From Rhodospirillaceae bacterium (GTDB lineage Bacteria; Pseudomonadota; Alphaproteobacteria; CACIAM-22H2): a stretch of DNA of 64,000 bases. Each line of letters starts with the position of its first letter. Within the stretch, counting starts at the first letter, position 1. Below are positions 31,048-35,503 of this stretch, in pieces. Made by a program: the position numbers and the translations under genes. The DNA lies in contig JALHMR010000024.1 in the NCBI GenBank assembly GCA_022843945.1, forward strand, positions 1-64,000, given 5' to 3'. The notes below the pieces were generated by a model. That model ran no database searches. It was not told the origin of the DNA and worked only from the letters and a program-made list of their open reading frames with translations.

Positions 31048-31499
31048 ATGCTTCCACGGGTTTCACACGGCCTGTTCCTGATCTTAGCCGCGGCGCTGCT
31101 GGCTCCCTCCGCGGCGTCGGCCCAGGCCAAAGAGCCGCCGTCCTGCGCCGCCATTACCTTCCGCCCGCTGACCGCCGATAGCGGCGATGGCGAGCATGAT
31201 GCCGGCGTCTACAAGTGCGGTTCGGCCGGATCGTCGTGAAAGGTGTCGCCAAGGGCGGCCGGGTCGAGAACCATTTCGTGACCGTCAACAACAGCAAGCC
31301 GCCGGCCGCCGGCGCCCTGCCGGCGAGCGTCGCCGCCTGCGCGGCGGAAAAGAAGCTGCCGGCTCCGGGCCGGGCGGTGGAAATCTGCAACGGCGACCGG
31401 CTGCAGGTCCTGGTCAACCGGGCAGGCGACCGGCGCTACGTACTGCTCTACGCGCGCCAGGGCAGCCAGTGGCAGCTATGCAGCGCCGGAGCGGCCTAG
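31048..31499 (+). pseudogene. small secreted protein gene interrupted by a frameshift
   Basis: A start at 31048 (GAGGACAACG upstream) encodes a Sec signal peptide (MLPRVSHGLFLILAAALL, cleaved near ASA) and a mature start with PPSCAAITFRPL. The frame then reads a stop at 31239. Shifting frame near 31216 gives an uninterrupted continuation (RFGRIVVKGVAKGG, then YVLLYARQG and WQLCSAGAA) to 31499 that looks like the rest of the same secreted domain with two pairs of cysteines. One missing base around 31216-31217 explains both halves. It may be a true pseudogene, a sequencing or assembly error, or, less likely, programmed frameshifting. Confidence 0.7.
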
Positions 31500-31605: not shown

Positions 31606-32310
31606 ATGTTCGGGTTCGTGTTTCGGCTGGTCGGGCGGGTTATCGGCTTTGCCTTCAAGGCAACGATCTTCGTCGTCGCCATCGCCGCGGTCGGTGTCGG
31701 GACGATGTACGCGCTGTTCGACGCGGAGCAGTACAAGCGGGTCGCCACCCAGCGCCTCGTCGACCTGACCGGCCGGGCGGTCAGCATCGGCGGCCCGGCC
31801 CAGCTGGAACTGACCCTGCCGCCGCGCATCATCCTGAACGACGTGCGCATCGGCAATGCCCGCTGGGGGACGCGGCCGGACATGGCCCGTATCCGCCGGG
31901 TGGAGATGCGCCTCAACCCGCTGCGGGCGATCGCCGGTGACAGCGGCACGACCGACGTGCGGCTGGCCGGCGTCGATCTCTACCTGGAGACCGGCCCGGC
32001 GGGCATCGGCAATTGGGAATTCGGAACAGTTCTGTCCGGCGCCGCGGCGGCCGCGACCGGTGCCCTGGCCGTGTTCGATGCGCTGGGCGTCCTGTCTCCG
32101 GTCGGGGGCTCGGTCTCGGTGTCGGACGTCAATGTGACCTTCCGCGACGGCACCTCGGGCCGTACCCAGACGGCCGGCCTGGGCAATACCGCGGTCGAGG
32201 TCGCGGGCCAGGGGGCGCGCAGCGCGGCATCGATTAATCCTTCTGTGGCGGCAATCACAGACAGGCGCGACGATCCGTGCGAGAAAGACGGGACGCTCGT
32301 CATCCGTTGA
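31606..32310 (+). CDS. AsmA-like membrane-anchored protein
   Basis: 234 aa. One N-terminal membrane segment (about 12-34) is followed by a domain resembling the N-terminal part of AsmA-family proteins (RVATQRLVDLTGRAVSIGGPAQLEL, then PRIILNDVRIGNA). AsmA proteins are elongated periplasmic bridges linked to lipid transport, but this protein is much shorter than a full AsmA and probably represents only the first domain. It ends 16 bp before the CHAT gene and may be co-transcribed. Confidence 0.7.
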   Translation: MFGFVFRLVGRVIGFAFKATIFVVAIAAVGVGTMYALFDAEQYKRVATQRLVDLTGRAVSIGGPAQLELTLPPRIILNDVRIGNARWGTRPDMARIRRVEMRLNPLRAIAGDSGTTDVRLAGVDLYLETGPAGIGNWEFGTVLSGAAAAATGALAVFDALGVLSPVGGSVSVSDVNVTFRDGTSGRTQTAGLGNTAVEVAGQGARSAASINPSVAAITDRRDDPCEKDGTLVIR

Positions 32311-32326: not shown

Positions 32327-35300
32327 ATGCCCGCATCCCGCCTGTTAATCATTGTTACCCAGCTCGGTCTGGCGGCGCTCGTAGCGCTGGTTACCGCGAC
32401 GGCCGACGCCCAGCAGCAGCCCCGCGGCCAGGGCGGCGGGCCGGGTGGCCGCCCTCCCGCTCATCAGGGCGGCGGATCACCGGGCGCTGCTCCCGGCGGT
32501 GCCGCCCCGATGCAGCGGCAGGCCACCGAAGCCGATGCGGACTCGCTGCTGGACCAGGGCCTGATCGCCGATCCGGCGCGCATCGAGGCAGCCAAGCAGA
32601 AAGCGGCCGAAGCCCCGCCGCAGACCCAGGATCCGGCGGTTCTCGCCCGCTTCTATTTCGAACGCGGCACCGCGGCGGTCGCCGCGACCCTGCAGCGCCA
32701 GGCGCTGGAGGATTTCCGCCGTGCGGCCGATTACGCGCGCCAGGCGCCGGACCTCGACAAGAGCGCGTTCCTCATGCGCCTGTCGGCCATCGAGTCCGAC
32801 AGCGGCCGGCAATCGGTTGCGGTGAAGCTCGCCGAGGAAGCCATCCAGTTGAACCCGCCGAGCATGCGCCCCCGCCTGCTCTCGTTTTACGCGACGCTGG
32901 CTCAGCGTCAGCTCGGCGCCGGCAATGTCGAGGGCGCCGACGCGGCATTGACCCAGATGCGCGCCCAGCGGCGCGAGCTCGAGAACAATCCGCGCTTCAT
33001 GTCGAATCCGAATTCGAAGCGCAACCTGAATGAGTCGGTATGGGCCTCGGCGCGGGTGCTCGAGCGCAAGGGGCAGCTCACCGAAGCCGAGGCGCAGTTC
33101 CGCGAGGCGCATCGCGCGATGCTGGCGATGAACGACCCTCGGGATTCGGGCCGCCTGACCCAGGTGACCGGCGCGCTGGCCAACAACCTGCGCCTGCAGA
33201 ACCGCCTGGCCGAGGCCGAGAACGAGGCGCGTGCAACCCTGGTCGAGGTGCAGCGCCGGTTCGGCGCCAGCGGTCTGCCCGTGGCCCGCTCGCTGATGAA
33301 TCTCGCCGGGATCCTGATGGCGCAGGGACGGTTTGCCGAGGCCGAAGGCCTGGCGCGCCGGGCCATCACCATGCTGACGCAGCTTAATCAGGGAGTCGGC
33401 GGAGCGCGCCAGCTTCTCGCCAGTTCCCTCGCTGCCCAAGGCAAATGGACGGACGCGCATCGCGAGTTCGAAACCATGCGCACGCAGATGACGCGGGGCG
33501 GCTTCACCGACCAATACGAGAACCTGACGCGCCGCAACCCGTTGATCGGCATCGCCATGCTGCGCGCCGGCCAGCCTGCCGAGGGGTTGCAGCGGCTGCA
33601 GCGCGTCTACGAGGAGACGCGCAAGGAGCTGGGTGAGCGCCACTACGCCACGGCCGAAGCGCGCGGCTTCTATGCCATGGCGCTGGCGCAGACGGGTTCG
33701 CGCGACCCGGCGCTGGCCGAGTTCCGCGGCGCCTCCGAGATTCTGCTGTCGCGCTCGCGCGAAAGCAGCGATTCGGAGGAGAGCCAGACCTCGACCGCGC
33801 TCGATCAGCGCGTGCGCCTGGTGCTCGACGGCTATATCGATCTCCTGGCCGACGCCGCGGCCGGCGGCAATGCCGATGCGGCGGCCGAAGCCTTCCGCCT
33901 GGCCGATGCGGCGCGCGGGCGCAGCGTGCTGCGCGCCCTGGCTGCTTCGGCGGCGCGTTCGGCGGCGAGCGATCCAGCGCTGGGCGACGTGGCGCGCCGG
34001 GTGCAGGACGCCGAGAAGCAGATCGCCGCCCTCAACGGTCTGCTGGCCAATGCCATCAGCGCCCGCGCCGCGGATCGCGACGAGAACGCCATCAAGGCGC
34101 TGCGCACGCGCATCGACAGCTTGCGCACCGAGCGCGGCCGGCTCTCGGCGGAAATCGATCGCAAATTCCCGGACTATGCGCGCCTGGTCAGCCCCGATCC
34201 GGCGACCATCGCCGACGTGCAGAAGTCGCTGCGACCCGGCGAGGCCATGCTCGCCGTATTCAGCGGCGAGCGCCGCACCTACACCTGGGCCGTGCCCAAG
34301 AGCGGCCGCGCGGTGATGAGTGCTGCGGCTCTCGACGGGCCGGCGCTCGCCGAATCCGTGACCAAGCTGCGCAAGGCGCTGGATCCCAATGCCGCCACGC
34401 TCGAGGACATCCCGGCCTTCGATCTGGCCGAGGCGAACCGGCTCTACGCTGCCCTGCTGGGCGGCGTCGAGGCGGGCTGGAAGGACGCCTCGGTGCTGTT
34501 CACCGTGCCGGATGGCGCGCTGGGGCAGCTGCCGCTGGCGCTGCTGGTGACGGCACCCACGCCGCCGGTGCGCGCGGTCGCCGGCGCAAGCCCGTTCTCC
34601 GAGTATCGCGCCGTGCCCTGGCTGGCGCGCAAGGTGGCGGTGGCCCAGCTGCCCTCGGTCTCGTCGCTGGCGGCGCTACGCGCCGTGCCGGCACCGCGCG
34701 GCGAGCGGCGGGCCTTCATCGGCTTCGGCGATCCCTGGTTCAGCAAGGAGCAGGCCGAGGAGGCGAAACGCGAGAGCGCCGCCGTCCAGACCGCCGGCCT
34801 GACCACGCGCGGCATTCCCATCCGGCTGCGCAGCGCCCCGAAAGGCGGCGCCGATTTCTCGGCCGAGTACGGCCAGCTGCCGCGCCTCCCGGACACCGCC
34901 GACGAGGTCAAGTCGATCGCCGCCGCGCTGCGCGCCGGGCCGGACGACGTGGTGCTCGGCCTCAAGGCGAGCCCGACCACGGTCAAGCAGATGGACCTGC
35001 GCAATCGCCGCATCGTCATGTTCGCCACGCACGGCCTGGTGCCGGGTGACCTGGCGGGGCTGGGCCAGCCGGCGCTGGCGCTGTCGGCGCCCGATGTCAC
35101 CGGCAATCCCGCCGACGGGCTGCTGACGGTCGAGGACATTCTGGCCCTCAAGCTCAATGCCGACTGGGTCGTGCTGTCCGCCTGCAACACGGCGGCGGCG
35201 CAAGGGCAGGGGGCCGAAGCGGTCTCGGGCCTCGGCCGGGCGTTCTTCTACGCCGGCACGCGCGCCCTGCTGGTCAGCAACTGGCCGGTGGAGAGCACCT

Positions 35301-35503
35301 CGGCGCGCGCCCTGACCACCGACCTCTTCCGCCGGCAGGTCGAGACACCGGCCATCACGCGGGCCGAGGCGATGCGTCAGGCGATGCTCGCCCTGATCGA
35401 CGGCCCGGGCCTCGCCGGGGCGGACGGCAAGGCGCTGTTCACCTATGCGCACCCCATCTTCTGGGCGCCCTTCAGCCTGGTCGGTGACGGCGGCGGCAGC
35501 TAA
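32327..35503 (+). CDS. exported TPR-CHAT (caspase-fold) protein
   Basis: 1058 aa. A signal peptide (about 1-27, cleaved near ADAQQ) and a Gln/Gly/Pro-rich linker precede a long tetratricopeptide region (about 100-480). A helical region follows, then a C-terminal CHAT domain (about 700-1058). The caspase-like catalytic dyad is visible as His902 (FATHG) and Cys953 (LSACNTA), so it should be an active cysteine peptidase. CHAT proteins usually act on partner proteins selected by the repeats. The signal peptide makes this one periplasmic or surface-directed. No partner substrate gene could be identified next to it; the short AsmA-like gene precedes it. Confidence 0.9.
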   Translation: MPASRLLIIVTQLGLAALVALVTATADAQQQPRGQGGGPGGRPPAHQGGGSPGAAPGGAAPMQRQATEADADSLLDQGLIADPARIEAAKQKAAEAPPQTQDPAVLARFYFERGTAAVAATLQRQALEDFRRAADYARQAPDLDKSAFLMRLSAIESDSGRQSVAVKLAEEAIQLNPPSMRPRLLSFYATLAQRQLGAGNVEGADAALTQMRAQRRELENNPRFMSNPNSKRNLNESVWASARVLERKGQLTEAEAQFREAHRAMLAMNDPRDSGRLTQVTGALANNLRLQNRLAEAENEARATLVEVQRRFGASGLPVARSLMNLAGILMAQGRFAEAEGLARRAITMLTQLNQGVGGARQLLASSLAAQGKWTDAHREFETMRTQMTRGGFTDQYENLTRRNPLIGIAMLRAGQPAEGLQRLQRVYEETRKELGERHYATAEARGFYAMALAQTGSRDPALAEFRGASEILLSRSRESSDSEESQTSTALDQRVRLVLDGYIDLLADAAAGGNADAAAEAFRLADAARGRSVLRALAASAARSAASDPALGDVARRVQDAEKQIAALNGLLANAISARAADRDENAIKALRTRIDSLRTERGRLSAEIDRKFPDYARLVSPDPATIADVQKSLRPGEAMLAVFSGERRTYTWAVPKSGRAVMSAAALDGPALAESVTKLRKALDPNAATLEDIPAFDLAEANRLYAALLGGVEAGWKDASVLFTVPDGALGQLPLALLVTAPTPPVRAVAGASPFSEYRAVPWLARKVAVAQLPSVSSLAALRAVPAPRGERRAFIGFGDPWFSKEQAEEAKRESAAVQTAGLTTRGIPIRLRSAPKGGADFSAEYGQLPRLPDTADEVKSIAAALRAGPDDVVLGLKASPTTVKQMDLRNRRIVMFATHGLVPGDLAGLGQPALALSAPDVTGNPADGLLTVEDILALKLNADWVVLSACNTAAAQGQGAEAVSGLGRAFFYAGTRALLVSNWPVESTSARALTTDLFRRQVETPAITRAEAMRQAMLALIDGPGLAGADGKALFTYAHPIFWAPFSLVGDGGGS

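Follow-up and report, generated by a model that had tools for sequence, protein, structure and literature searches.

A predicted exported TPR-CHAT cysteine peptidase of a Rhodospirillaceae bacterium, with homologues encoded beside CHASE2-cyclases

Bacterial caspase-fold proteases have mostly been considered in the context of cell death or immunity. Among the described proteins that resemble the one reported here, those of the DdvA type carry a cytoplasmic anti-sigma part and a membrane segment ahead of a TPR-CHAT part, which in DdvA is periplasmic. Craspase (Csx29) shares the order of TPRs followed by CHAT, with a caspase-like fold, and works with a CRISPR effector partner; separase, which is eukaryotic and related only remotely, also joins helical repeats to a caspase-fold protease. 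The founding CHAT protein is HetF of Anabaena. DdvA is described as an anti-sigma factor that acts on an ECF sigma factor (PMC4374960), while HetF is described as a putative protease with CHAT, TPRs and one predicted transmembrane segment, which differs from our protein in its N-terminal CHAT (residues 1-555) and its role in division and heterocyst formation (PMC8406250). Caspase-fold proteins have already been tied to signalling in print, through a metacaspase-CHASE2 fusion of Trichodesmium erythraeum that joins a caspase-fold domain to CHASE2 (PMC3501461, PMC2853523) and through CHAT proteins in ECF54 sigma-factor neighbourhoods, for which a control of signalling by proteolysis was proposed (PMC8999054). 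As portrayed in those sources, the fusion contains C14 rather than CHAT, is predicted to be cytoplasmic and is a single protein without a cyclase, and the output in the ECF54 case is a sigma factor, not a CHASE2-cyclase. Within the open-access literature searched (subscription papers lay outside its scope), no paper held both "CHAT domain" and "CHASE2", none held both "CHAT domain" and "DUF928", and the combination of CHAT, CHASE2-cyclase and the small protein that we call c4 was not found.

Here, we analyzed a window of 64,000 nucleotides (contig JALHMR010000024.1, assembly GCA_022843945.1, positions 1 to 64,000 of the forward strand). A stop-free ORF at 32327-35503 (+) encodes a TPR-CHAT protein of 1058 aa, whose domain order runs from a signal peptide through a low-complexity linker and a TPR solenoid to a C-terminal CHAT domain with His902 and Cys953. 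GC by codon position (0.74/0.53/0.88) is like that of a coding frame, and the chance of so long a stop-free frame is about 4e-11 at the window's base composition. The features of the locus are the following.

32327..35503, + strand: exported TPR-CHAT protein, 1058 aa (ORF translation, Pfam and codon-position GC)
32327..32410, + strand: predicted type-I signal peptide, residues 1-28, cleavage between ADA and QQ (by eye and a crude rule; orthologue L059 is likewise type-I)
32411..32521, + strand: Gly/Pro/Gln-rich linker, residues 29-65 (sequence; low model confidence)
32528..34165, + strand: helical TPR region, residues 68-613 (Pfam TPR_12/TPR_10 and model helices)
34430..35488, + strand: CHAT domain, residues 702-1054 (PF12770, 157 bits)
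35030..35032, + strand: predicted catalytic His902 (present in 48/49 homologue rows)
35183..35185, + strand: predicted catalytic Cys953 (present in 48/49 homologue rows)
31606..32310, + strand: short AsmA-family gene, 16 nt 5' of the CHAT gene (PF05170; its 3' part also precedes orthologue L059)

The CHAT match compares with a curated Pfam cut-off of 24 bits, and the other Pfam matches of the protein were TPR_12 in three stretches and TPR_10. Peptidase_C14 (PF00656) was absent from these matches, which sets the protein apart from the metacaspase profile. An NCBIfam match to FxSxx_TPR was rejected, as it reached 57 bits against a cut-off of 300 and covered the TPR part only.

Inspection by eye and a home-made rule both take the N-terminus, MPASRLLIIVTQLGLAALVALVTATADA followed by QQ, for a Sec signal peptide that has an A-x-A site. 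A sequence-only reading of this DNA had proposed a signal peptide in front of the TPRs and CHAT, and the proposal is supported as a prediction, with export signals recurring in 41 of 49 homologue rows by the crude home-made rule. Of these, 27 carried a lipobox (lipoprotein-type) and 14 did not, a group that includes L053 and L084, whose sites resemble a lipobox, the fused frame L058, and L096, which is truncated at a contig edge. The eight rows without an export call comprise six truncated at contig ends, L054, which lacks a basic residue despite its lipobox, and L088, which represents the second part of a split gene. A type-I signal in place of a lipobox is seen both in the window protein and in its orthologue from the same genus (G001, L059). 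The same reading had held that CHAT proteins known from defence systems are cytoplasmic and that a secreted one is therefore of interest; this contrast was overstated, because export signals are common in the window's bacterial family and DdvA, the top Foldseek match by E-value, is transmembrane. Its claim of an intact His/Cys pair was borne out, and the pair is conserved; a lack of conservation among orthologues was one outcome that it had named as refuting. His902 (within FATHGL) and Cys953 (within VVLSACNTA) were both present in 48 of the 49 aligned homologue rows, the remaining one being the upstream fragment of that split gene, which lacks the region, as well as in 27/27 rows of alignment A1 and 33/33 rows of alignment A5. 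The 49-row set behind the dyad and export counts excludes L037 and L038, which duplicate L059 and L058. Comparison of the window gene with the same-genus orthologue (68% identity) gave a dN of 0.27 and a dS of 1.06 (dN/dS of about 0.25), indicating purifying selection. Peptidase activity is a prediction.

Immediately upstream, the AsmA-family gene at 31606-32310 matches the N-terminal part only of the PF05170 model and stops 16 nt short of the start codon of the CHAT gene, and the two genes probably share one transcript. Its 3' part also precedes the same-genus orthologue (51% identity over 106 aa), and branched-chain amino-acid transporter genes lie downstream at both loci. The earlier observations that the CHAT gene follows an AsmA-like gene and that a broken secreted-protein gene lies upstream both hold, the former with the gene conserved at the orthologue and the latter as a reading at 31048-31499 split over two frames. 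As to conserved neighbours, which that reading had suggested looking for, the AsmA-like gene recurs at the orthologue, but the telling neighbours, namely c4, CHASE2-cyclase, C14 caspase, a cNMP-binding protein and ShlB, adjoin homologues and none of them lies beside the window copy. The split reading consists of a signal peptide and then a conserved-looking body, in two frames, and reflects either disruption of the gene or an error in sequencing. An AsmA-like reading was also seen by eye at L082:2-478, where it points away from the linked CHAT operon in another relative (G006), and may be a coincidence. PADLOC also matched the neighbouring transporter genes, but these matches resemble those of ATPases in general and were not taken as defence genes.

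Around the homologues, our comparisons revealed two gene orders. In type 1, TPR-CHAT, c4 and CHASE2-cyclase follow one another on the same strand in 12 loci (L046, L049, L050, L051, L052, L055, L056 and L082-L086), four of which (L046, L051, L055 and L083) have a C14 caspase between CHAT and c4, and two of which (L085 and L086) have the CHAT gene cut by a contig end. The small c4 protein seems to carry a signal peptide and matches no Pfam family; nothing in the PDB matched its structure model (pLDDT 70, pTM 0.42) at an E-value of 0.001 or lower. In type 2, which has a divergent CHAT, the order is x225, a cNMP-binding protein, a TPR-CHAT lipoprotein, y234 and CHASE2-cyclase, and a ShlB-type secretion gene is divergently oriented; this order was found in 10/10 loci (L062-L071) of the window's bacterial family by tblastn, with Pfam checked in L062 and L066. 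The small exported protein y234 thus lies between the type-2 CHAT and the cyclase, and its hhalign comparison with c4, at 33.9% over 55 columns with the signal peptide among them, did not establish the two as one family. In the cyclase alignment, two metal-binding Asp residues (D471 and D515) together with N592/R596 were invariant in 14/14 rows. The position that we take to set the substrate is Lys in the type-1 rows, L072 and L108, and Gln in L062, L065 and L067, so that 'adenylate' is a prediction, and a weaker one for type 2.

In two other genomes, the caspase-fold gene next to c4 was a different one. At L116, a C14 caspase lies directly upstream of c4, near a cyclase without a CHASE2 domain. 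At L115, the order is a 2124-aa two-partner-secretion (TPS) exoprotein (L115:7450-13821; PF05860, GLUG repeats and a C-terminal caspase domain, PF00656), then c4, then CHASE2-cyclase. The c4-cyclase pair was also seen without an adjoining CHAT gene, in L110, L111 and four opened genomes of one genus (L112-L114 and L119; five had c4).

Across 61 relatives, 28 of 61 CHAT matches lay within 5 kb of a CHASE2 match, against 0.37 expected on either strand under uniform placement, a figure that ignores descent, and 24 of 61 lay just upstream of the CHASE2 gene on the same strand. These 61 rows remained after 12 rows below 76 bits were dropped, eight of which overlap C14 caspases; they include some contig-edge fragments, and one gene may yield two rows. 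The 28 linked matches are spread over 19 genomes, and within the window's family 22/49 matches, in 13/23 genomes, were linked. In the loci examined, the CHASE2 gene encoded a CHASE2-cyclase and was separated from CHAT by c4 or y234, the small exported proteins; frequent additions were a caspase or a cNMP-binding protein. Related genomes are not independent and the linkage events are far fewer than 24, yet the arrangement recurs in two CHAT types that have diverged from each other. The c4 gene occurred in 24/29 relatives with CHAT versus 0/32 without, with weak or partial c4 matches in G002, G010 and G029, and within the window's family in 19/19 versus 0/4 (Fisher p 1.1e-4, which ignores descent). 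In the class as a whole, CHAT was found in 41/190 genomes and CHASE2 in at least 89/190.

The window genome encodes all components of this module, i.e. CHAT, c4, CHASE2-cyclase and exported C14 caspases, with the CHAT gene of the window unlinked from c4 and the cyclase. The c4 and CHASE2-cyclase genes stand together on another contig (G000:C6, L090), near a ccmH-like gene, and the linked CHAT-c4-cyclase operon of G006 likewise lies near a ccmH-like gene by eye. In the tree, the window and G001 proteins fall among linked members, in a polytomy with the G006 protein. The ccmH context and the tree position fit, short of proof, a window gene that is the relocated peptidase of the c4-cyclase module. 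A second TPR-CHAT paralogue at C17 of the window genome (49% identity) could instead be the partner of the c4-cyclase pair. A C17-type CHAT ORF of G001 (L058:3329-7225) continues in frame from a multi-helix N-terminus resembling that of the histidine kinase encoded just upstream of the C17-type gene in the window genome (L042:6927-8336), which represents either a real fusion or an assembly error. At C3 of the window genome (L045:4578-7960), two tandem C14 caspase genes with signal peptides also graze the CHAT model.

The unlinked position of the window copy could also suit a stand-alone envelope protease that processes or clears exported proteins, perhaps with the AsmA-like gene, and that has no cyclase link in the window's genus. 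The upstream AsmA-like gene and downstream transporter genes common to the orthologue locus agree with such a role, as do the many CHAT homologues without a cyclase neighbour (22/43 CHAT tree rows are labelled as lacking a cyclase). However, homologues lie near CHASE2 far more often than chance would give, and c4 tracks CHAT across the 61 relatives; both argue against it, and we regard it as rather unlikely.

We tentatively favour a reading in which the gene product is exported and acts as a TPR-CHAT cysteine peptidase of the periplasm, where it may well supply the proteolytic input to a CHASE2-cyclase switch. Its activity, its substrate and its coupling to the cyclase are inferred, the last of these from gene context. 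In the proposed mechanism, the TPR solenoid would bind an envelope protein, and the CHAT domain would cleave either this protein or a partner of it. Our best guess for the target is c4 or the CHASE2 ectodomain, whose cleavage would change the output of the cyclase. By analogy with family members, the relay probably would pass from the peptidase to the small exported c4 and on to a CHASE2 receptor whose class III cyclase lies in the cytoplasm. More broadly, and more speculatively, such loci might represent undescribed, widespread envelope signalling modules in which an exchangeable exported caspase-fold peptidase (a TPR-CHAT lipoprotein, a C14 caspase or a two-partner-secreted exoprotein with a caspase domain) switches a CHASE2-cyclase by cleaving either a small exported protein or the ectodomain of the receptor, the window protein being an unlinked peptidase of this kind. 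If true, exported caspase-fold proteases beside transmembrane cyclases would have a testable function in extracytoplasmic signalling, and a possible input for CHASE2 receptors would be suggested.

The structure model of the window protein (mean pLDDT 83.1, pTM 0.80) was compared with known folds. DdvA (PDB 8rot and 8rw5) was the top Foldseek match by E-value (1.1e-11) at low TM-scores (0.23/0.27), and VIA-align gave a Z of 19.6 and an rmsd of 5.5 over 608 residues spanning TPR and CHAT. Both are thus alike over most of the length, and DdvA is a membrane protein in signalling; it differs as an anti-sigma factor, whereas the window ORF begins with a signal peptide and linker ahead of the TPRs and has no anti-sigma domain in Pfam, and so falls outside the DdvA type. 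For separase (5fby), VIA gave a Z of 25.2 and an rmsd of 3.4 over 323 residues. Plain TPR proteins scored as high or higher (TSK/BRU1, Z 27.0), so that fold matches of the TPR part weigh little. At the sequence level, phmmer with the CHAT half found no match among PDB sequences, and a CHAT profile search reached Craspase only at E 1.4-1.7, below a chance-like match to ArtJ. The likeness to DdvA could point to a non-proteolytic sensor or scaffold, in which TPR-CHAT has a periplasmic ligand or binding partner, as it may in DdvA; we consider this improbable, since a scaffold would need neither His902 nor Cys953, both of which are strictly conserved. A defence protease like the type III-E Craspase, guided by a CRISPR effector, shares the TPR-CHAT fold (VIA Z of about 21 to 26 against Csx29) but is most improbable for a protein that is predicted to be exported and has no PADLOC match, in a 97% complete genome with 0 RAMP (PF03787) matches.

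Outside the window's family, the CHAT gene adjoins CHASE2-cyclase and ShlB on a Sphingobium plasmid, and CHAT genes lie near a gene annotated as CHASE2 on a Tolypothrix plasmid. A DUF928-like match in a cyanobacterial neighbour was set aside at 18.6 bits, under the cut-off of 26. By tblastn, 128 plasmid records were matched, and eight were opened. Among the genes listed for them in an incomplete gene table, CHASE2 occurred in at least two (L107 and L108), a caspase-family gene in at least three (L102, L103 and L107), and neither in four (L101 and L104-L106). One of the eight, a Pseudosulfitobacter plasmid (L102:1117-9362), carries an operon-like run of a caspase C14, a serine protease, a TPR protein, a small protein and a CHAT protein.
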